Below are positions 10,235 to 39,274 of a stretch of DNA of 39,274 nucleotides, one piece after another; position 1 is the stretch's first letter; each line of letters begins with the position of its first letter. Made by a program: the position numbers and the translations under genes. The stretch comes from a virus: positions 1 through 39,274 of IMG/VR virus record IMGVR_UViG_3300049847_000430; one strand, given 5' to 3'. The notes under the pieces are model-generated. The model was not told the DNA's origin. It searched no databases and saw only the letters and a program-made list of their open reading frames with translations.

Positions 10235-10491
10235 GTTTTATATTTTACACTTATTCGCTCTAAAGTATTTCGATCAATTCTCCCCACTGTTGCACCGAGA
10301 AAAGCATCTCTAAATAAAACTTTCCCCGAGGGAGAAAAAAAAACAAATTCCATATTACCAGGAGCAACAATCTGTTGCTTATAAACTATTCCGCTTCGTG
10401 TTATACAATGAATTTCGGTATAGATTAATTCAGGATCAATAAAATACTTCTGTCCCGGAAGCCCATAATAATATTTAATATGCATACTCAT
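10231..10491 (-). CDS. Small beta-rich virion protein, paralogue of the upstream protein's C-terminal domain
   Basis: An 86-residue protein, ATGA-coupled to both neighbours. Its core (ITRSGIVYKQQIVAPGNMEF, then SPSGKVLFRDAF and LERISVKYKT) aligns by eye with the C-terminal domain of the 238-residue protein encoded just upstream (VSRSGMTYYESGGSPGNMEF, ALGRIIFQYA, LEPVSIEYK). It therefore appears to be a free-standing copy of that domain, probably an Ig- or carbohydrate-module-like beta sandwich on the tail. A duplication followed by splitting is the simplest explanation. Exact role unknown. Confidence 0.65.
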   Translation of the reverse strand: MSMHIKYYYGLPGQKYFIDPELIYTEIHCITRSGIVYKQQIVAPGNMEFVFFSPSGKVLFRDAFLGATVGRIDRNTLERISVKYKT

Positions 10492-11204
10492 GTTTCGATC
10501 TTATATTCTATGCTTACGGGTTCTAAATCAGGAGCAGCCGAATTACCGGCATATTGAAATATAATTCGTCCTAAAGCACTGTTATATTGAAATTCCATAT
10601 TACCCGGGCTTCCTCCAGACTCATAATAAGTCATACCTGATCTGCTTACATGAAGTATCGTAATCGTCTCTCCGACTCCCGGAATAAGAAGAGCACTACT
10701 TGCATAAAGAACACCATCGGGAATAGTGGTATAAATTGTAGGCTCCTGCTCACAAGTTGGAGGCGTTGGATCAACAATCGTTGTACCGAAAGTCAGATTT
10801 CCAGTTATCCTTAAAGTCAGCGAAGATTGTGACCATTGAACTACATCTCTGTTCACGCTTGTATTTCGTATAAAAGCATCAAAGCTAATATAAGCTGTAT
10901 CTCCATCCTGATCTGTAAAAACAACGCGATAAGTATTTATTGTTCTTCTGACAGCGAGTTGCATGAAATAAAGAACACTCAGCCTGCCTTCCGTATTGTC
11001 CAAAACTGTCACGCCTGAAACATTCAGTAAGTAATTACTCATGCCAGGGACGTACTCTCTATCAGCTCCGCTGTTTACATGAGTGACCTCAATCTCATCC
11101 TGCTCGAGTGGAAGATCAGCCGCCTTGCCGCAAAAAATTGGGTAATAGTTGCCTGAGATAAGCATTGTCACAACTACATTTTTACCAGCGACTTTATTAG
11201 CCAT
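10488..11204 (-). CDS. Second tail-tube-like protein with added C-terminal domain
   Basis: A 238-residue protein. Residues 1-135 look like the phage tail-tube/major tail protein fold (VVVTMLISGNYYPIFCGKAA, then LEQDEIEVTHVNSGADREYV, VLDNTEGRLSVLYFMQLAVR, VVQWSQSSLTLRITGNL). Compare the candidate main tube protein at 16.1-16.5 kb (VPIAISTDGITYKNVVCKKL, ETDCGTLISTGASD, KVSATFTFNGSGDI). A Pro/Thr/Cys linker (VDPTPPTCEQEP) leads to a C-terminal beta domain at about 155-238, which recurs as the next gene and at the end of the head-closure-like protein. A tube-like protein encoded after the tail-tip gene may cap the tail or build the tip. It starts 2 bases downstream of the tail-tip stop. Confidence 0.6.
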   Translation of the reverse strand: MANKVAGKNVVVTMLISGNYYPIFCGKAADLPLEQDEIEVTHVNSGADREYVPGMSNYLLNVSGVTVLDNTEGRLSVLYFMQLAVRRTINTYRVVFTDQDGDTAYISFDAFIRNTSVNRDVVQWSQSSLTLRITGNLTFGTTIVDPTPPTCEQEPTIYTTIPDGVLYASSALLIPGVGETITILHVSRSGMTYYESGGSPGNMEFQYNSALGRIIFQYAGNSAAPDLEPVSIEYKIET

Positions 11205-18068: not shown

Positions 18069-18620
18069 TCAAAACCAAAGGTAACGTTTATAAGGAAGTG
18101 CTAATATCCTGGCCGCCTCACAGATTCCCTGTGTTTTCTGTTCGAAAGTATCTCCCCGATTTTCATATCTGTAAGCTATTTCAGTAAGGATAGCAAGTTT
18201 TAAATCCTCTGGGACTGTCATATATCCAGCCCAATAAATAAGCCTGTAACGAAGGCCTGTGAAGGTTTGGAATGTCTTAAAACCGCCACCGTCAAAATTC
18301 CAACTATCCGTAGCTGTTTCATAAGCCACCGGCCCGCTTCCCGTAGCTCCTGAAGAAACACTTACCTCAATAATATCTGTCACAGGGCCATAAGGAAGTT
18401 CGTTTTCGGAGTCGAAAAAAAGATAAGCTGTTATCTGTTGCCTTACGATTGAAATATGGCAAAAATTCTCAATAGCCCTCCTGCATTGAGTAATTAAAGA
18501 AGTGATCTTAGTATCGTCGTCAGTGAAGTCAATTGTTAATTGATTTTTTGCTTGAGCAAGTGTCACCGGCTCTGTTGGTGAATATTCGTACCTATCTACT
18601 GAAATGACCTGATTTGACAT
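18069..18620 (-). CDS. Head-tail connector protein (gp6-like)
   Basis: A 183-residue protein with the gp6-like connector pattern: VTLAQAKNQLTIDFTDDDTK followed by ITSLITQCRRAIENFCHISI (two helices packed around the ring) and, later, LRYRLIYWAGYMTVPEDLKL, then ILTEIAYRYENRGDT and RILALPYKRYLWF. This family forms a ring under the portal. The middle (GPVTDIIEVSVSSGATGSGP) is a beta insertion. It overlaps the GT4 gene encoded just upstream by 29 bases, so the sugar cassette is inserted without a gap next to the neck genes. Confidence 0.85.
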   Translation of the reverse strand: MSNQVISVDRYEYSPTEPVTLAQAKNQLTIDFTDDDTKITSLITQCRRAIENFCHISIVRQQITAYLFFDSENELPYGPVTDIIEVSVSSGATGSGPVAYETATDSWNFDGGGFKTFQTFTGLRYRLIYWAGYMTVPEDLKLAILTEIAYRYENRGDTFEQKTQGICEAARILALPYKRYLWF

Positions 18621-19641
18621 TTATTAAAAATTGTTCTAAGCCTTCCAATTCTTTAAGCGGGTCGAGTTCCCTGCTTCTCTGTTTACAAAGTAACGACTTT
18701 TTAGAATAAAATTCAGGATCATCAAATTGCCTGATCGCTTCGATCCATTCTGAAGAGTCCCCAATATCCACACAAGCGCCGCCAGGTCGTTCAGGTTTTA
18801 TTTCCCTGCCGATAAAATAACCGGCATAATCACAGTTCTCTAAAAGCCCAGGCGTTGGTGTACAGACTACTGGAATACCCGAACACATGGCTTCGGTCGC
18901 TGTGCGACCCCAACTCTCATAATCGGAAGGCATGAGCAGAAGTCTTGTCTTTCGGTAAGTATCTAAAATATTAGGTGTATTGGGAACTAAAGTAAAATTC
19001 GGAAGCTGTAAGAGTTTATTTATAATATCTACCTGTGAAAGTCCCAAGACTCCAGGGTTGTCATAAGAACCTATGACGCCTAAGAATTTTTTATCAGGCA
19101 TCGCTTTTACGATGTTATAAAACATCATTCCACCCTTACGTTCATTCAAAGAAACAAGTGTAATATATTCTCTCTCTGAAGGGTCTCCAGTGTCATAAAC
19201 TCTATAATCACATGGAGGATGCAGAACATATCCGGGTTGCTTATAGCCAATTTTTAAACGAATCCAATTTGAATTAAAAACGATAAATGTATTTTCATTT
19301 GATTGCATGATTGAAGGATAAGGAATATCATTGTGTACAAAATGAACTAAAGGCTTTCTCGTCTCTTTAGACATGATTATTGAATACTGAGTCATATCTA
19401 GATGAGTGAGAATAATATCCGGTACCCGGTAAGTATCGACCTTTGAAATAGCAGAACCGACCATACAATATACTCCCTGGTATTCGTAATCCTGCTTAAT
19501 ACCATATTTAGAAGCATGATGTAAAGCAACTCTGCATTGGTGACCCTTGCCTATCATGTACTGAAATACTTGATGCATCATTGCCTCGCTTCCGCAGTTA
19601 TGTGTCGGTAAGTATAAATGTATAGAAGCAAGAAGTTTCAC
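18592..19641 (-). CDS. GT4-family glycosyltransferase
   Basis: A 349-residue GT-B-type enzyme that would move a sugar from a nucleotide-sugar donor to an unknown acceptor. The N-terminal part has HNCGSEAMMHQVFQYMIGKG (a GSE-type substrate loop) and FVHNDIPYPSIM; a linker LHPPCDYRVYD follows. The C-terminal Rossmann domain shows LVSLNERKGGMMFYNIVKAM and the GT4 signature MPSDYESWGRTATEAMCSGI followed by PVVCTPTPG, containing the E-x7-E pair that binds the donor. It closes a run of coupled sugar-transfer genes (ATGA with the upstream 83-residue gene) and overlaps the connector gene. Confidence 0.88.
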   Translation of the reverse strand: MKLLASIHLYLPTHNCGSEAMMHQVFQYMIGKGHQCRVALHHASKYGIKQDYEYQGVYCMVGSAISKVDTYRVPDIILTHLDMTQYSIIMSKETRKPLVHFVHNDIPYPSIMQSNENTFIVFNSNWIRLKIGYKQPGYVLHPPCDYRVYDTGDPSEREYITLVSLNERKGGMMFYNIVKAMPDKKFLGVIGSYDNPGVLGLSQVDIINKLLQLPNFTLVPNTPNILDTYRKTRLLLMPSDYESWGRTATEAMCSGIPVVCTPTPGLLENCDYAGYFIGREIKPERPGGACVDIGDSSEWIEAIRQFDDPEFYSKKSLLCKQRSRELDPLKELEGLEQFLINVKSGHFSR

Positions 19642-19889
19642 TTATATAAATTAATCAACTCATCCACTGTTAATGCAATGTAATTTTCTTTCCGCCATGC
19701 CGAGAAATGAGGAGTTATCATTTTTGGAGAAGGATATTCCGTTAATTCAGATTGTAAAAGATATTCAATGTTCTTACTTTCTAAATTAAGTATTATAACC
19801 TGAACTCCTATTATTGTAGCTCTTAAAGGTTTATTCCATTCAAATGAATAAACCTTATCTCCGATATTAAATTTTGTTTCAATTGTCAT
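19638..19889 (-). CDS. Hypothetical protein, 83 aa, KOW/SH3-like
   Basis: A small beta-rich protein with the pattern FNIGDKVYSFEWNKPLRATI followed by IGVQVIILN. This resembles the 'IGDxVy' entry of small SH3-like barrels common in Bacteroidota phages and prophages. It ends HFSAWRKENYIALTVDELIN. It is ATGA-coupled on both sides and embedded between GT11- and GT4-type genes. I see no catalytic motif and assign no function; it may simply travel with the cassette. Confidence 0.6.
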   Translation of the reverse strand: MTIETKFNIGDKVYSFEWNKPLRATIIGVQVIILNLESKNIEYLLQSELTEYPSPKMITPHFSAWRKENYIALTVDELINLYK

Positions 19890-20698
19890 ATTATTATCGC
19901 GTTAGATGGATAAAGAGTGTCAAAGTTAAGCCCATTAGCCTGAGCACCGAACCAATGTTTTGGCATGACTATTTTCTTCTCTGGGTGAGTTCCGAGTAAA
20001 GCAGCCATATGTGAGAAAGAACTATTGGCACAAATAAAGGATTTGCATTTTTTCATAAAAACGAAATCGGCCATATAATCAGGCTTTTCATATTTTAAAA
20101 AATCATCCTCGTCCATGTATTCGGCCAGAATCTTAAAAGAATATCCTTCGATTGTCGAAAACAATTCCTTTGCATCTTTGGCATCATCGGTGAATATTAA
20201 AAATTTAGTTCCTTCAGGAAATTGAGCCATTGCCTTTTCATAATAGTCTCTAGAACAGCGGGGATGATAAGCATTTTGATCGTTTATATAATCTCCGGCT
20301 CTGAAATGAACGGCGACTCTATCCATTTGTTCGGGTTCAAATTTAAAAGTAAAATACCACCTTATTTTTTCTATGCAATGATCAAAAAACTTTATACTCT
20401 GAAAATGTGAAGGTGAAAGATTCCAATTTCCCTGAGGTAAATAAAGCTCTCTGTAATTCCAGAAATAAGGATAGTTCTGAAAGCTTAGTGTCTCGTCAAG
20501 TTCAGGCAGTGGGTTTACAAGGTATTTCCATACCTCAATATCTTCCTTTGTCCCGAATCGTTCGACCATATCCCACACAACGAACTTAGGAAAAGCATAA
20601 GGTTGATGGCTTTTAATCGCTGTTCCTATTGTTCCGGCTATCTGAAAAAGACAATTACCAAAACGTCCCTGGCGACCAAGTTCTTTAAAAGTGATCAT
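19886..20698 (-). CDS. GT11-family (alpha-1,2-fucosyltransferase-like) glycosyltransferase
   Basis: A 270-residue protein starting MITFKELGRQGRFGNCLFQI. I choose this ATG because it overlaps the upstream stop as ATGA. GRFGNCLFQIAGTIGTA is the N-terminal GT11 motif (G-x-GNQ/CxFQ), VAVHFRAGDYIND corresponds to the H-x-R-x-G-D-Y donor-binding motif, TKFLIFTDDAKDAKELF to the FSDD-type motif, and FVFMKKCKSFICANSSFSHM followed by AALLG to the third conserved block. These enzymes typically add fucose in alpha-1,2 linkage using GDP-fucose; a related deoxysugar is possible here. The donor would have to come from the host. It is rare to find this family inside a phage structural operon. Confidence 0.85.
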   Translation of the reverse strand: MITFKELGRQGRFGNCLFQIAGTIGTAIKSHQPYAFPKFVVWDMVERFGTKEDIEVWKYLVNPLPELDETLSFQNYPYFWNYRELYLPQGNWNLSPSHFQSIKFFDHCIEKIRWYFTFKFEPEQMDRVAVHFRAGDYINDQNAYHPRCSRDYYEKAMAQFPEGTKFLIFTDDAKDAKELFSTIEGYSFKILAEYMDEDDFLKYEKPDYMADFVFMKKCKSFICANSSFSHMAALLGTHPEKKIVMPKHWFGAQANGLNFDTLYPSNAIII

Positions 20699-21300
20699 CT
20701 CTTTTCCTCCCATTTTTCAACATGATCATGTAAGAAGTGAGTTCTGAAAAAATATTGATAATCAGTTAAAGGGTTTTTGTTCACTTCATGAAACAGTTTA
20801 TAATAATCATTTCTCACAAAGATTAAATTTCCGGTATGACATAAAAGAAAATATCCCTTCTCAATTCCAAGTTCGACCATAGGCTTATAACTTGTTCCTA
20901 AATTGGGTTCGCAAATTACATTTTCTTCCGGGTGGATACCTGAGTTAATTTCAATGATCACAATATCCGGATAACCTTCATAAGCTTCCCAGATATAATA
21001 ATCGTTCAGATCAATGTCAATGCTTAAAATATTACAGTCAGGTATTTCTTCATTTACGTTCTCTTCAGTTACAAATAATTTGCTTATGCCTTCTTCCATA
21101 GGATCGGAGTCAAAATAATAACATTGCCAGTTAGGATTCCCAACCAAAAAGTAAATGTTTGAATAGTATTTTTTTGTCGGTGCTCCGAACTCAACCGCGA
21201 TTCCTTTAAGTCCTATTCTCCGAATACATTCTTTTAAAATACCTTCCTCTCCATTCTGTGAGGTTCCTGAGTAATTATATTTATCGAAGAAACTAAGCAT
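20695..21300 (-). CDS. FkbM-like methyltransferase-fold protein
   Basis: A 201-residue protein. SQNGEEGILKECIRRIGLKG, then VEFGAPTKKYYSNIYFLVG, PNWQCYYFDSDP, NILSIDIDLNDYYIWEA and PDIVIIEINSG follow the order of blocks in FkbM-like SAM-dependent methyltransferases often found next to glycosyltransferases. In the usual family motif the first block continues with an acidic/glycine pair (VEFGAxDGxxxSN); here that is APTKK, so SAM binding may be altered or lost. It overlaps the GT2 gene by 8 bases and the GT11 gene as ATGA. Sugar O-methylation, or a non-catalytic role, are both possible. Confidence 0.65.
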   Translation of the reverse strand: MLSFFDKYNYSGTSQNGEEGILKECIRRIGLKGIAVEFGAPTKKYYSNIYFLVGNPNWQCYYFDSDPMEEGISKLFVTEENVNEEIPDCNILSIDIDLNDYYIWEAYEGYPDIVIIEINSGIHPEENVICEPNLGTSYKPMVELGIEKGYFLLCHTGNLIFVRNDYYKLFHEVNKNPLTDYQYFFRTHFLHDHVEKWEEKR

Positions 21301-22000
21301 TTTTAAATTTATTGATTACATATTCTCGTTCCCAGAGTCTCACATTTCCATTACAAGCCGTTTTGCTCTGCTGGCCTTCCCATTCCCTAACATTAATAGC
21401 TGTATCAACAAAAGCAGGTTCACCATATTTTAATTGCATACGAGTGTAAAACTCGCAATCCATTAGCCAGATAAGATTTTCATCAAAAGTAATATCGGTT
21501 TTTCTGAAAGCCATTGCCGAAGGACAACCGTAAGTATTACACCCTTCAGCGAGTCCTTTATCATGACTGAATAGATCGAAGTTAGGATAAGGATTGTGAG
21601 TTATCCTCCCTGACTCTCGATGTTCTGATCTGCAGAAAGCCCAATCCTTTCCATTTAATGATTTTACAAACCTGTTCATCGTATATGAATAAATAAAATA
21701 ATCATCGCAAAACATCGGCTTAATAATATCTCCCTCCGATTTGCTGATTGCATTATTCATATTAATTGAACTTTTTCCCCTTGAACCGTTATGAAAATAT
21801 TTAATCAAAGAGTTGGGTAAAGCATTTTGCAAATTAAATTCTAAAATCCATTGGTAGATTGAATAATCTTTACTATCATCGCTGATAATAATTTCATATT
21901 TACCGAAATAATCCTGCATAAGAATCGACCCGAGAAGATGCTCAAGAAATCGTATTGCATTTCCAGACATATCACTTGTAATGATGCAGATACTTACCAT
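21293..22000 (-). CDS. GT2-family glycosyltransferase
   Basis: A 235-residue GT-A-fold enzyme. The start MVSICIITSDMSGNAIRFLE and GSILMQDYFGKYEIIISDDS is the family-2 entry: first strand, helix, and the SDDS donor-binding acidic pair. 'DIIKPMFCDDYFIY' gives the metal-binding D-x-D-like region and 'GCPSAMAFRKTDITFDENL, IWLMDCEFYTRM' corresponds to the acceptor/catalytic part (DCEFYTRM resembles the D-x-E/W-F-x-R block of GT2). No membrane segment. It is shorter than most bacterial GT2 enzymes but keeps all main blocks. Substrate unknown. Confidence 0.8.
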   Translation of the reverse strand: MVSICIITSDMSGNAIRFLEHLLGSILMQDYFGKYEIIISDDSKDYSIYQWILEFNLQNALPNSLIKYFHNGSRGKSSINMNNAISKSEGDIIKPMFCDDYFIYSYTMNRFVKSLNGKDWAFCRSEHRESGRITHNPYPNFDLFSHDKGLAEGCNTYGCPSAMAFRKTDITFDENLIWLMDCEFYTRMQLKYGEPAFVDTAINVREWEGQQSKTACNGNVRLWEREYVINKFKNA

Positions 22001-22737
22001 TCTGGGTTGTTTGAATTACCAAAACCTCTGTTTCTTTTTCTATGATGATTTATTATAGCCGGGTAATCATCGCCGGGAAGCTTCATGTCAAGCCTGTGCA
22101 TATTTGTAAGCGAAGGGAACCAATGCAGGGGAATTTTATATTTAATCCTTAAACAGCCTAAAATAGCCTGATCATGCCGGTGATCGGCGAAATTGGGAAC
22201 ATTCGGAATAATAGAGGGAAAATCATCAATCATTCCAGGCATCTGGCAATATAAAAGCCATTCCTTTACAAATTTTTTACTTGCCTCGTTTATATAATAT
22301 ATTTGAAAAGAAGCTTGCGGTTGTTTGCTTCCAATAGTATTATCACCTGGACATATTGGAAGTATTCTATTTATTACATCCATTTTACACCATTCCACAT
22401 GAGCAAACCCGTTATTAAAAAGCATTACATTTTCCTTCATGCACTTGATGACCTGTTTCACATCTCCCACAAATTCCTGACCAGCATCACTCCAAATTAA
22501 AATATCTCCTTCCTGACAACCTAACATTGCTTTGTAAATATGATAAGGCTTCCACAGCCAAAAGCCAGCACCCCTTTTTGCCTCCAAAATTTCTTTATTA
22601 AATTCTCTGAATGTCGGGTCAATAGTATTTGGATTCTGCGGCCAGCAAATATCTACCCCATTTTTTAAAGCAGACTCGACACAAAGATTCATACTTTGGC
22701 TCATTGAATCATCTGCATATGTTACAAGCCTGATCAT
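21994..22737 (-). CDS. WLWKPY-type glycosyltransferase-like protein
   Basis: A 247-residue protein. GAGFWLWKPYHIYKAML followed by GDILIWSDAGQEFVG and, later, FADHRHDQAILGCLRIKYK are the marks of a family found in polysaccharide loci of bacteria and in large viruses, usually annotated as unknown or as glycosyltransferase-like. The SDAG motif after a hydrophobic strand is a D-x-D-like metal site, and HRHDQAIL resembles the C-terminal HxxDQ block of GT-A enzymes of the GT32/GT8 type. I therefore infer sugar transfer. It is coupled to the GT25-like gene (ATGA) and to the GT2 gene (7-base overlap). Confidence 0.65.
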   Translation of the reverse strand: MIRLVTYADDSMSQSMNLCVESALKNGVDICWPQNPNTIDPTFREFNKEILEAKRGAGFWLWKPYHIYKAMLGCQEGDILIWSDAGQEFVGDVKQVIKCMKENVMLFNNGFAHVEWCKMDVINRILPICPGDNTIGSKQPQASFQIYYINEASKKFVKEWLLYCQMPGMIDDFPSIIPNVPNFADHRHDQAILGCLRIKYKIPLHWFPSLTNMHRLDMKLPGDDYPAIINHHRKRNRGFGNSNNPEW

Positions 22738-23339
22738 AGATTTTGTTTGAGCCAGCGATTACCCTCTTTATGACAATAGGTATAATCTGCCCAGGTATTC
22801 CATATTTCACTTTTTCGGGGTCGTTGATAGGCGATCATCGGGTTAAGAACATAACTTCTCCCCTGGTTTAAAATATTATGTCGTAGCCAGTCATCAAAGA
22901 CCATACAGCCTTCTGTCTTATATTCGTCGGTAACGAATTTAAAGTTTTCCAGAATAAACTGAACACATTCTGCTGAGTAAAGAGTTGCATGAGATTGAAA
23001 ACAATTATGAAGTTTGGCTAAATTCTTTGAATAAAATGTAGGCATCTGCCAGACCGTTGTGTCAAATCCTAAAATATTACCACCTAAATGAATGGTCATA
23101 AAATATTCAGGATAATCAAAAAACGGAAGTGGATAAGTATCAAAACATACATCATCTTCAAATAGCATCAAATCATCTCCCTCTGCAAGTTTCATACATT
23201 CATAAACAGATTTATTAAAAGCAAGTACTCTATTATCTTCTACAATAGCATCAAATCTTTCAACATTCAATCCGACTCGTTTAAATTCCGCTTCAGCCTG
23301 TTCCCAGTCAGTTCCCATTGTTATGCAAAGGGCTTTCAT
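22734..23339 (-). CDS. GT25-like glycosyltransferase
   Basis: A 201-residue protein. It starts MKALCITMGTDWEQAEAEFK, GLNVERFDAIV, the usual opening of GT25 (LPS/collagen-type) enzymes in which the first strand is followed by a helix and an 'xxRFDAI' strand. 'LAFNKSVYECMKLAEGDDLM' followed by LFEDDVCF carries the E-D-D metal-binding motif, and 'SHATLYSAECVQFILENF' plus 'GCMVFDDWLRHNIL' match the acceptor region and the D-x-x-L block. It is the first gene of the coupled sugar-transfer run in the direction of transcription and overlaps the small 63-residue gene as ATGA. Confidence 0.75.
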   Translation of the reverse strand: MKALCITMGTDWEQAEAEFKRVGLNVERFDAIVEDNRVLAFNKSVYECMKLAEGDDLMLFEDDVCFDTYPLPFFDYPEYFMTIHLGGNILGFDTTVWQMPTFYSKNLAKLHNCFQSHATLYSAECVQFILENFKFVTDEYKTEGCMVFDDWLRHNILNQGRSYVLNPMIAYQRPRKSEIWNTWADYTYCHKEGNRWLKQNL

Positions 23340-23527
23340 TGCTTACCGTTTAATAAAGCTTTTGCCTTTTCGAAATTCGATTCCATTTCTTTCAGTTCCC
23401 GTTCAATAGAAGCAGAAATATCATTCCTTAAAATAACTCTTTTTTCTAAAGGAAGCTTTAAAGCGCCCTCAGTAATACGATCTGAATTAGCCGGAACCGG
23501 GCTTTTACGTTTTTTTTCGCTATTCAT
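23336..23527 (-). CDS. Small charged hypothetical protein, 63 aa
   Basis: A lysine/glutamate-rich helical protein: MNSEKKRKSPVPANSDRIT followed by a predicted helix KLPLEKRVILRNDISASIER and ELKEMESNFEKAKALLNGKQ. No recognised family. It lies 5 bases downstream of the lipoprotein gene and its end is ATGA-coupled to the GT25-like gene, so it belongs to the same message. The 'ALKLPLEKRVILRNDISASI' segment resembles short phage proteins seen near capsid genes, but I cannot give a role. Confidence 0.55.
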   Translation of the reverse strand: MNSEKKRKSPVPANSDRITEGALKLPLEKRVILRNDISASIERELKEMESNFEKAKALLNGKQ

Positions 23528-23532
23528 AATGT

Positions 23533-23760
23533 TTAATTTTTATCACAATGACCACCGATATAGTTTTGCCTGTCGTCATAGAAAAGGTGCATTTTCATCC
23601 AGTCCTGATCGGTGCATAAATTAAAATCTGGCCTTACATAGCCATTCGTATCAGGCCCCCATTTACAAACATAACAGACTTTTTTTGGAGCGTTTTCTCC
23701 AATATTCTTTGAACATGAAATCAAAGAAAGTGATAATAAGGTTACGATTAAATATTTCAT
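23533..23760 (-). CDS. Small lipoprotein, unknown function
   Basis: A 75-residue protein starting MKYLIVTLLSLSLISCSKN. The hydrophobic N terminus ends in the lipobox LISC, so the mature protein begins at Cys15 or nearby and would be lipidated. The longer frame (27 more codons) runs through a hairpin and lacks a signal, so I use the inner start. The mature part holds further cysteines (VCYVCKWGPD, NLCTDQDWM, GHCDKN), which could form disulfides in the periplasm. A surface lipoprotein encoded inside a late operon could be a superinfection-exclusion or cell-modifying moron. Confidence 0.65.
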   Translation of the reverse strand: MKYLIVTLLSLSLISCSKNIGENAPKKVCYVCKWGPDTNGYVRPDFNLCTDQDWMKMHLFYDDRQNYIGGHCDKN

Positions 23761-23765
23761 ATTAT

Positions 23766-23822
23766 AAAAAAAATGAGGTTTCAAACCTTCGACCGGGTTG
23801 GCGATCTCAGCTATCCACCTCA
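23766..23822 (-). terminator. Possible terminator or structured element before the lipoprotein gene
   Basis: On the minus strand, TGAGGT and ACCTCA can pair (closing about 37 bases), with a short inner AGGTT/AACCT hairpin next to the 3' side, followed by eight T. It ends only 6 bases before the lipoprotein start codon. It could terminate most transcripts coming from the capsid-surface genes and so lower expression of the sugar cassette. The wide loop makes it a weaker candidate than the terminator at 25.96 kb. Confidence 0.4.
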
Positions 23823-23886
23823 AAAAATTAATCCTGCCCAACCACAGGTAAAAAACAAAACTAATAAATTATTCGATAATTCCAAG

Positions 23887-24714: not shown

Positions 24715-25935
24715 TTAATTGACAAAATAATTATTTGCTGTGACGTAAATATCCTCATCAAAAAACGGGTTATCAAAAGTATTATTCCATACCCTTGTAA
24801 TATCTGAATTAACAGAACTTACTCTCAATCTTCCATCCGATGTTAAACTCAGTGGTTGTAACTTGTCAGTCACATAACTCTGCGGAGTATCATTAACCAC
24901 TCCCTGAATCATCACTCCCAATAATGAAGTAGCATCAATACCCTGAGATAATGCAAGGGAAACATAAAAGGCGGCAAGTGTTGTTTGAGTTGCGAAATCT
25001 TTTGCTGCAATTGTACTCAAAGATGTATTACCTATATCTTGCTTAGCCTCTGTACTTGCTCCGGTTGGAAGTGGTAAAGAAACAGCATCAATTGTAATAC
25101 TATTTCCCCCATCCTGAATATTCACTGCGCTTGCTCCTGCTGCATTGTTGATAGTTACATCGCCTATATCAACGCCGGGTTGCGCTGTTGGAAGTACATT
25201 TAATTCACCCGCTGCCGTGACAAGTGCTGTATCTGTACCATCGGTTATTTTTGTAAATTGAGACTTGTCAGTTTGTGTTGAAGCGAGAGCAAGTAAAGAT
25301 GTGTTTAAATTTGTTCCGGCATTTGCTGTAATAGAACTATCAGAAGCCACTGCAACCCGTTGTGTTCCTGTTCCTGCTGCACCCGTTCCTACATTTACCG
25401 TTTGACCATTTACCTGCTTAATGTTTTCATCTTGTGTTCCTGAGGGAGTAATTGTTACTGTTCCGCTAACAGGTAAAGGATTGGTTAATTTTGTATCAAT
25501 CGAAGCCAGTGAAGTATTACCAGTGTCCTGTCGTGCTGCTGTGGCTGCGCCCGAAGGAAGAGCCGATGAACTAATAACAACAGCACCCGTATTTACTGCT
25601 GTAATTTTCCCATCAATAGACGACAAACTTGTATTACCTGTATCTTGCTTAGCTGCTGTTGCAACAATAGAATTTAATGTAGTTACTAAAGCATTTAAAG
25701 CATCCTGCTTCGCTTCTGTGGAAGGTGCTGAAATAATCTTTGCAAGTATTGAAGCTAGTGTTCCTTCGGCTGTGGCATCAGTGACAGGTAAAGGCGTGCC
25801 GATATCAACCAATGTCGCAACGCCATCACCGCCAAATTCAACCTTTACTTTTTGGTGCTGCACTCCAGCAATATCTTCTGTTGCTATTGTTGCGCCAGAA
25901 GTATCGGGAATATTGACTATAACATTATCAGCCAT
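24715..25935 (-). CDS. Probable head fibre / structural protein with EAKQD repeats
   Basis: A 406-residue protein with several copies of a short repeat of the type (T/A)xAKQDxxNTSLxxI: STEAKQDALNALVTTLNSI, TAAKQDTGNTSLSSIDGKI, AARQDTGNTSLASIDTKL and STEAKQDIGNTSLSTIAAK. Between them are Gly/Thr/Val-rich strands. Such repeats occur in fibrous virion proteins of many phages; each copy probably forms a coiled-coil or beta turn in a trimer. Location one gene after the capsid, behind its terminator, suggests a capsid fibre. Its leader carries a TAACTTTG box. The repeated AxxQDTGNTSL segments are good candidates for recombination. Confidence 0.55.
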   Translation of the reverse strand: MADNVIVNIPDTSGATIATEDIAGVQHQKVKVEFGGDGVATLVDIGTPLPVTDATAEGTLASILAKIISAPSTEAKQDALNALVTTLNSIVATAAKQDTGNTSLSSIDGKITAVNTGAVVISSSALPSGAATAARQDTGNTSLASIDTKLTNPLPVSGTVTITPSGTQDENIKQVNGQTVNVGTGAAGTGTQRVAVASDSSITANAGTNLNTSLLALASTQTDKSQFTKITDGTDTALVTAAGELNVLPTAQPGVDIGDVTINNAAGASAVNIQDGGNSITIDAVSLPLPTGASTEAKQDIGNTSLSTIAAKDFATQTTLAAFYVSLALSQGIDATSLLGVMIQGVVNDTPQSYVTDKLQPLSLTSDGRLRVSSVNSDITRVWNNTFDNPFFDEDIYVTANNYFVN

Positions 25936-25998: not shown

Positions 25999-27171
25999 TT
26001 ACAAATAAACAAAAGCATCAGGGCGAAGTGTAGCAAAACCTACCCTTCTTTCTGTGCGTGCTGTAATCAAGTTCTTTTGCACGTTATCGGAATCCTGCTC
26101 GAAGAACTCAGTCCTTAAGCCGTCCACCTGAATGATCGCTGCCTTAGTGAAATCACCAACGAGCGTTTTATTCGGTGTAGATCCAAGATAAAGACTATTC
26201 GCAATCACAACAGGAACGCCAACAATCATTACATCACCCGTAGGACTTACCGTTACTCCGCCAGGAGTTGAATAATCGTTGGGTTTTGTTTTTAAAAGTG
26301 TCGCCCATTGTGCTGCTGTAGTCACAATGTAATTTGGATCATAATCATTATCGCTCAGGTTTGCGATCCAGTCAATTATCTTTTCAGCATAAACAGAGGC
26401 TGAAGTTGTCGAATTACCAGTCGCTGCTGATCTCAGCGTACCGAAAAATTCAAAGCTTTCCTGCCTTTTATAATCTTCCAAAAGCTCATTGGCTACAAAA
26501 GACTGAAGGAAGGGAAGATCCTGCATCATTTGTTTTGCGATTCTCACGAAGCCAGCCAGGTACTCACAGGTAACATCAACCTTTGTCAGATCATAATCAA
26601 TCTGAGCTTTCGCATTTCCGTGCGTAAGCTGAAAACCGAAAGAACCTTCACCCACAGGATTATTCTGACGGTAAAAGCTCCAAAGACCTGTTGAGCTGTT
26701 TATCGTGCTTACCAGATCCTGCATATGTACTTTTCTTCTACCACGAATTGCAGGAGTTAAAGAATACTGATTCACAACAGCGCCGGTAAGATTTGCCGAC
26801 GTTGTCATCGTTCCTACTGCCTTTACCTCAAAGTTTACTCCCTTTGATTTTCTTACTGCCTTTATTTCTTCAAAATGTTCCGCGAAGGCTTCAGCAAGAT
26901 TTTCCTTTGCAGTCTTTTCTTCTCCTGTCAGCGCAGAGAAACGACCTCTTTTAGCTTTGAACTCATTCTGTGCAGCGAGGATTTCTTCAATCGTCTTATT
27001 CTGCTTAGTGAGTGTTTCGGTAAGTTGTTTTAATTCGTTTTCGAGAGCTTTATTAGCTGCCTCGGCAAGCTTTTGCGATTCCTGAAACTTTTTTGTTTCG
27101 GCCGTTTGTGTCTCGATAAAAGCATCTGTTTTTTTCTCAATGCTTTCGAGCACTTCCAATTCTGTTTTCAT
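25999..27171 (-). CDS. Major capsid protein, HK97 fold
   Basis: A 390-residue protein. Residues 1-about 105 are a charged coiled coil (LEVLESIEKKTDAFIETQT; NKALENELKQLTETLTKQNK), the delta/scaffold domain that is removed by the prohead protease. The rest follows the HK97 capsid pattern: GAVVNQYSLTPAIRGRRKVH, LWSFYRQNNPVGEGSFGF, VDVTCEYLAGFVRIAKQMMQ, DLPFLQSFVANELLEDYKRQ, YIVTTAAQWATLLKTKPNDY, VMIVGVPVVIANSLYLGS, and the C-terminal RTERRVGFATLRPDAFVYL. It is preceded by the protease gene and a hairpin, and followed by a strong terminator, giving a separate abundant message. Confidence 0.95.
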   Translation of the reverse strand: MKTELEVLESIEKKTDAFIETQTAETKKFQESQKLAEAANKALENELKQLTETLTKQNKTIEEILAAQNEFKAKRGRFSALTGEEKTAKENLAEAFAEHFEEIKAVRKSKGVNFEVKAVGTMTTSANLTGAVVNQYSLTPAIRGRRKVHMQDLVSTINSSTGLWSFYRQNNPVGEGSFGFQLTHGNAKAQIDYDLTKVDVTCEYLAGFVRIAKQMMQDLPFLQSFVANELLEDYKRQESFEFFGTLRSAATGNSTTSASVYAEKIIDWIANLSDNDYDPNYIVTTAAQWATLLKTKPNDYSTPGGVTVSPTGDVMIVGVPVVIANSLYLGSTPNKTLVGDFTKAAIIQVDGLRTEFFEQDSDNVQKNLITARTERRVGFATLRPDAFVYL

Positions 27172-38880: not shown

Positions 38881-39064
38881 TAAAAATGGATGGCGGCAGG
38901 AGAGATTATTTCTTTCGAAAATCTTATCCAAGACCGGATGCTGCGTTATTTACTTGCATATCCCTTTCGCAGCCATTGCAAGTACCGATCACCCATATAA
39001 TTTAAAGAACTTAAAAATGCCGGGTGCGTATTCGTAGCATCTGTGCCGCTTTGTTTATTAACCT
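38881..39064. other. Intergenic region next to the hexamer array
   Basis: About 180 bases without a good gene. It contains a 7-pair inverted repeat (ACTTGCA 38952-38958 / TGCAAGT 38977-38983), a TTTCGAAA palindrome and AT-rich parts. No clear promoter of the TTTG/TAnnTTTG type was found, although the early transcript must start near here. Together with the hexamer array this is the only large non-coding stretch of the genome and is the best candidate for an origin or packaging region. Confidence 0.5.
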
Positions 39065-39274
39065 GACCTTGACCATGACGCTGACCATGACCCTGACCCT
39101 GACCATGACCATGACCTTGACCCTGACCCTGACCTTGACCCTGACCTTGACCCTGACCCTGACCCTGACCATGACCATGACCTTGACCCTGACCCTGACC
39201 TTGACCCTGACCTTGACCCTGACCTTGACCCTGACCCTGACCCTGACCATGACCATGACCTTGACCCTGACCCT
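39065..39274. repeat. Hexanucleotide array with higher-order structure, right part
   Basis: Thirty-five tandem six-base units, all GACCNT with N = C, T or A except one gacgct. Using c, t, a for the units, the order from 39101 is a a t c c t c t c c c (39101-39166), then a a t c c t c t c t c c c (39167-39244), then a a t c c at the end, which continues into the left array as c t.. after joining. So there are three higher-order copies of 11-13 units. On the minus strand the array reads as Val alternating with Arg, Lys or Met. Confidence 0.97.

Follow-up and report, generated by a model that had tools for sequence, protein, structure and literature searches.

Why would a tailed phage carry a run of sugar-transferring enzymes in the middle of its head genes? 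The question is raised by IMG/VR virus record IMGVR_UViG_3300049847_000430, which was analyzed over its whole length (39,274 bases; "the window"). The virion genes of this record lie on the minus strand in the order terminase, portal, morphogenesis, protease, major capsid protein (MCP), proteins c406 and c228, two small open reading frames (ORFs), the enzyme cassette, head-tail adaptor, neck, and tail. The cassette, which extends from position 23339 to 18592, encodes a GT25-like glycosyltransferase (GT), a WLWKPY-type GT, a GT2, an FkbM-like protein, a GT11, an 83-aa ORF, and a GT4. In our best explanation, to which we give a probability of roughly three in four, the cassette serves virion glycosylation in a lineage of tailed phages infecting Bacteroidota and builds an oligosaccharide on a virion protein, most likely that of the capsid. 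The putative oligosaccharide is possibly fucosylated and methylated. Virion glycosylation of tailed phages is already known, documented in the literature examined for mycobacteriophages only, and the cassette would be a new form of it; a literature search found no description of this cassette.

Organization of the Cassette

The six enzyme genes and the 83-aa ORF form a single overlapping run, with the MCP gene group on one side and the head-tail adaptor gene on the other. Successive overlaps from the 63-aa ORF that precedes the cassette to the adaptor gene measure 4, 4, 7, 8, 19 (or 4), 4, 4, and 29 nt, the alternative value applying to the FkbM-GT11 junction if GT11 begins at a downstream ATG, which matches the GT11 starts of its relatives. 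An earlier note on this DNA had proposed five tightly coupled GTs of different families together with an FkbM-like protein, placed within the virion gene block and not at a moron site. Each of these genes was found on the minus strand at the position given there, and Pfam matches, fold prediction, and conserved motifs support all five GT assignments. The note had overlooked the 83-aa ORF, of which profile mapping recovered no relatives in the 242 mapped loci described below.

Distribution, Inheritance, and Selection

Two profile scans of IMG/VR, one for GT4 and one for WLWKPY, yielded 518 and 270 relatives, respectively, and 80 were kept from each; the loci of both scans were retrieved by sequence and not by position. 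In total, 242 loci (L-numbers below) were mapped with profiles grown from the window proteins. These loci are not all independent, as they hold 119 unique GT4 proteins, and the 163 loci with both MCP and adaptor genes represent 127 distinct MCPs. In these 163 loci, no cassette gene was found outside the MCP-adaptor interval, and the adaptor gene lay within 200 nt after GT4 in 131 of the 134 cases in which a gene was mapped downstream. In relatives lacking the cassette, the MCP-adaptor gap is mostly near 290 bp. Since gene order and interval are conserved across such a large set of contigs, a chance arrangement can be ruled out. The complete arrangement was also detected in two contigs of bacterial metagenome-assembled genomes (Saprospiraceae and Taibaiella), and the MCPs of Flavobacterium and Cellulophaga phages are similar to that of the window; both observations point to Bacteroidota hosts. 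A DNA-level search among isolated phages found no relatives.

The enzyme content of the interval varies, GT4 being the sole enzyme common to all cassette types and present exactly once per record in the 11 of 11 records tested. The types comprised GT25-WLWKPY-FkbM-GT11-GT4 (28 loci), GT25-WLWKPY-GT11-GT4 (22, including one in which GT25 is split), GT25-GT4 (25, including one in which GT25 matched twice), GT4 without a recognized partner (23), and no cassette (65). A divergent GT25 hidden in the slot of the GT4-only loci was considered and rejected, as this slot is occupied by SAM (S-adenosylmethionine)-methyltransferase-like genes, to which L045 adds GT34-, GT2-, and DUF5672-type domains. The slot between WLWKPY and GT11 is variable: the window and a few relatives carry GT2 there, whereas in most relatives it is filled by methyltransferase-like or short-chain dehydrogenase/reductase (SDR)-like genes (a second FkbM-like gene in 26, other methyltransferase-like genes in 15 and 4, SDR-like in 9), and in L005 by the gene of a GDP-L-fucose-synthase-like epimerase. 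The smallest cassettes consist of one GT and one methyltransferase-like gene. Across the lineage, cassette size grades from two enzymes up to six or more, which could serve as a natural series for working out the order of assembly. Genes of the NUMOD4/HNH endonuclease type are inserted at differing points of the cassette (L174:12092-12712, L006:14748-15287, L009:5146-5685, and L002:6806-7333).

Placing the three cassette states on the MCP tree required 4 changes (minimum 2; shuffled mean 22.7). Protein distances of cassette and head genes correlate about as well as those among head genes, with values of 0.68 for MCP-GT25, 0.58-0.59 for MCP with other head genes (MCP-protease 0.59), and 0.75 for GT4-neck1. 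The median ratio of nonsynonymous to synonymous substitution (dN/dS) was 0.05-0.13 for the cassette genes and 0.075-0.114 for the head genes, indicating purifying selection. The few changes of type, the distance correlations, and the dN/dS values therefore show that the cassette has long belonged to the head block under selection and is no passing moron. Exchange between lineages has also taken place, since the nearest relative of the window is L006 for MCP, L242 for GT4, and L208 for GT25. Taken together, the head block of these Bacteroidota phages, a large lineage of which most members are uncultured, includes a GT cassette as a stable and selected component, and the presence of the cassette would predict which phages bear sugars on their particles.

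Identity of the Enzymes

Three GTs of the window were assigned directly by Pfam: GT4 (PF00534, 41 bits, cut-off 26.4), GT2 (PF00535, 28.9 bits, cut-off 23.3), and GT11 (PF01531, 40.4 bits, cut-off 23.9, 2.7e-10), the latter also matching phrog_2644 (7e-38) and showing in alignment the HxRxGDY motif as HFRAGDY. The GT25-like protein of the window matched no Pfam family by itself; its assignment holds at the family level, where PF01755 was matched by 9 of 28 aligned members (best 5e-9), the family profile matched procollagen galactosyltransferase 1 (COLGALT1; 3e-10), and the AlphaFold2 (AF2) model (predicted local distance difference test, pLDDT, 92) matched GT25/COLGALT1 structures and mimivirus R655 in Foldseek. 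Its EDD motif (residues 61-63) is invariant.

The WLWKPY protein matched no Pfam family. When the WLWKPY, FkbM, and GT11 profiles were searched against the sequences of solved structures, no meaningful match was obtained, and WLWKPY was therefore assigned by fold search. Its AF2 model (pLDDT 93.6) adopts a GT-A fold, with best Foldseek matches to GT8 (xylosyltransferase, glycogenin, and LARGE1) and GT6 (alpha-1,3-galactosyltransferase and blood-group transferases) enzymes, and the motif at the place of the catalytic DxD reads DAG. Chromosomal homologues in Bacteroidota are rare (about 3% of the genomes sampled), and about half of them adjoin GT2 genes, as expected of polysaccharide loci.

The FkbM-like family is a putative sugar O-methyltransferase family, with PF05050 matched by 7 of 22 members (best 1.4e-8) and not by the window copy, in which the SAM motif reads EFGAPTK instead of EFGAADG. 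GAPT, GAPN, or GAPD likewise replaces GAADG across a subgroup formed by the window, L002, L089, L178, and L242. This change makes the activity of the window protein uncertain, and the subgroup, judged by the motif, is possibly non-methylating.

Comparison with Described Systems

Among the closest parallels are mycobacteriophages. Searched against eight test proteins, the GT25 profile matched Che8 gp110 (1.8e-6) and Catdawg gp36 (3.4e-5), with shuffled sequences reaching at most 3 bits, a weak and local but specific similarity that would strengthen the mycobacteriophage analogy drawn earlier. In PMC12363180, Che8 gp110 and Corndog gp38 are described as essential to the glycosylation of the viral capsid, and a statement in PMC11600133 has the O-methyltransferase and three GTs of cluster O phages modifying capsid and tail tube proteins. 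With this kind of system the window shares the encoding of GTs alongside virion genes, as overlapping genes of the structural run. In cluster O phages (Corndog and Catdawg), genes for GTs and a methyltransferase similarly overlap one another within the block of virion genes, and the last GT is distantly similar to the window GT25 family. However, their O-methyltransferase and three GTs lie between portal and protease, whereas the cassette occupies the capsid-adaptor interval; their other enzymes show no detectable relation to it and include no GT4, GT11, or WLWKPY of the cassette families, and these phages infect Actinobacteria and not Bacteroidota. Che8 has three overlapping GT genes (gp108-gp110), but at the right genome end instead of between head genes.

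In Streptomyces phage TurkishDelight, the interval from the major capsid gene to the head-to-tail adaptor gene encodes gp20 (L086:10945-12981), which belongs to the same GT4 family. In this phage, however, two GT4 domains are fused in one protein, the major tail gene follows, and no other cassette gene was matched. In cyanophages P-TIM68 and S-SRM01, GT11 also adjoins WLWKPY- or FkbM-type genes, but among the metabolic genes of T4-like genomes and together with genes for sugar-nucleotide synthesis. The eukaryotic chlorovirus PBCV-1 likewise builds a capsid glycan with virus-encoded GTs, and its capsid GT structures are among the matches of the GT25 model.

Proposed Acceptor and Mechanism

The major capsid protein is the most likely acceptor, judging from the position and co-inheritance of the cassette and from the mycobacteriophage precedent, although other proteins of the head or tail could also serve. 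The earlier note had instead named the neighboring proteins c406 and c228 as natural acceptors, a suggestion that we consider improbable. Both adjoin the cassette, are rich in Ser and Thr (23% Ser+Thr in c406 and 20% in c228), and are probably virion proteins; c406 (24715-25935), which carries STEAKQD..GNTSL repeats, is probably private to this phage. However, neither has a detectable relative in any of the 242 loci, and in the cassette-bearing L006-L009, the MCPs of which are 55-56% identical to that of the window, both are absent and GT25 follows 45-500 bp after the capsid gene. As they are not conserved with the cassette, they cannot be its conserved acceptor, although they could be an additional one in this phage.

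Following the inferred co-expression of the cassette with the head genes, the enzymes would act in the cytosol during head assembly, as proposed from the lack of a membrane helix in any cassette GT, and would draw on host nucleotide sugars, with GDP-fucose for GT11. A first sugar would be placed on the virion protein by GT4 or GT25, the likeliest initiators. The constancy of GT4 alongside variable partners suggests that this enzyme begins the glycan or serves as its anchor. The role of initiator could also fall to GT25, given that its relatives glycosylate protein and that its profile matched Che8 gp110 and Catdawg gp36. The remaining GTs would then extend the chain by one sugar each. The stepwise building of a glycan on a virion protein, as suggested earlier, is thus retained as the best explanation, whereas the "about five sugars" envisaged is an upper bound and applies to this phage only. 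GT11 would add fucose, a sugar supported by the GDP-L-fucose-synthase-like epimerase (PF01370, 2e-64) that adjoins GT11 in the cassette of L005 (L005:2678-3598), and methyltransferases would cap the chain in phages with an intact one. The resulting coat would probably shield or tune the particle surface with respect to proteases, decoy binding, antibodies, or environmental attachment, and the cassette may indicate that virion glycans have functions beyond mammalian immunity. More tentatively, and with odds somewhat short of even, the capsid-adaptor interval could be a dedicated, exchangeable glycan slot, in which a constant initiator (GT4) is combined with swappable extension and capping enzymes to give a lineage-specific particle glycan, analogous to the O-antigen diversity of bacteria.

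Several observations weigh against virion glycosylation. Neither a specific insertion nor a C-terminal tail sets apart the MCPs that accompany the cassette, and their mature part shows no new Ser, Thr, or Asn; the sole enriched sites (window residues 51 and 60) fall in the N-terminal region that is expected to be cleaved. The Che8/Catdawg similarity is, as said, weak and local, the other mycobacteriophage enzymes tested did not match the cassette enzymes, and cyanophages encode similar GTs, of no known target, in large sugar clusters away from the head genes.

Possible Alternative Targets of the Cassette Enzymes

Late in infection, the enzymes could instead modify the host surface (lipopolysaccharide core or capsule), keeping progeny and debris from rebinding or excluding superinfecting phages, an alternative already raised in the earlier note. 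Relatives of GT11, GT2, GT4, and WLWKPY do occur in polysaccharide-type clusters of bacteria and cyanophages, and lipopolysaccharide core can be built by cytosolic, soluble GTs. However, the cassette lies in the structural block, is fixed between head genes, and is inherited with them, and in the window it includes no flippase, polymerase, lipid-carrier transferase, or membrane helix; a Gtr-type serotype-conversion cassette, with its membrane GT and flippase, is accordingly not what is seen. Tyrosine integrase was detected in 3 of the 20 records tested, some of them fragments, which makes lysogenic serotype conversion unlikely in general. We therefore regard a host-surface target as unlikely, and less likely than a virion target. 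Phage GTs are also known to hypermodify DNA (Pyle et al. 2024, as cited in a passage of PMC12619734), and the cassette enzymes might glycosylate the bases of phage DNA. This seems very improbable, since no thymidylate-synthase-type gene (PF00303) was detected in the window or in 16 related records (some of them fragments), the cassette sits in the structural block, and GT25 relatives act on protein, namely collagen and the Che8 capsid. The two DNA methyltransferases encoded in the window do not require glycosylation.

Gene Coordinates and Neighboring Features

The coordinates of the cassette and its boundary genes are listed in Table 1. Beyond the adaptor, the neck1 gene matches phrog_5 (1e-7).

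Table 1. Genes of the capsid-adaptor interval in the window.
Feature	Coordinates	Strand	Evidence	Remark
MCP	25999..27171	-	phrog_10 1.7e-27	Upstream boundary of interval
63-aa ORF	23336..23527	-		4-nt overlap with GT25; a relative also precedes GT25 in L242
GT25-like GT, 201 aa	22734..23339	-	Family Pfam matches, profile, AF2/Foldseek	Invariant EDD
WLWKPY-type GT, 247 aa	21994..22737	-	AF2 GT-A fold, Foldseek	Invariant D84, G86, WKP motif
GT2, 235 aa	21293..22000	-	PF00535 1.3e-6	Sits in variable slot
FkbM-like protein, 201 aa, putative sugar O-methyltransferase	20695..21300	-	Alignment, family PF05050 matches	Altered SAM motif
GT11 (alpha-1,2-fucosyltransferase family)	19886..20713	-	PF01531, phrog_2644, HxRxGDY motif	Likely start 20698
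83-aa ORF	19638..19889	-		Between GT11 and GT4; 4-nt overlap on each side
GT4, 349 aa	18592..19641	-	PF00534 1.9e-10, phrog_26352 2.6e-50
Head-tail adaptor	18069..18620	-	phrog_442 6e-21	Downstream boundary of interval

Just upstream of the cassette, a lipoprotein-like signal (MKYLIVTLLSLSLISCS) follows an internal Met start in the small ORF at 23533-23841, which possibly encodes a phage lipoprotein, such as a superinfection-exclusion factor. The major tail protein family phrog_1407 has a second match in the window, encoded at 10488-11204, and relatives likewise carry a second protein of this type beyond the tape measure gene. Both ends of the record (1-76 and 39062-39274) consist of a GACCCT/CCTGAC hexamer array, with about 35 copies at the right end and a 36-nt direct terminal repeat, across which the genome is probably closed; on the minus strand, the hexamer repeat could encode a Gln-Gly repeat.

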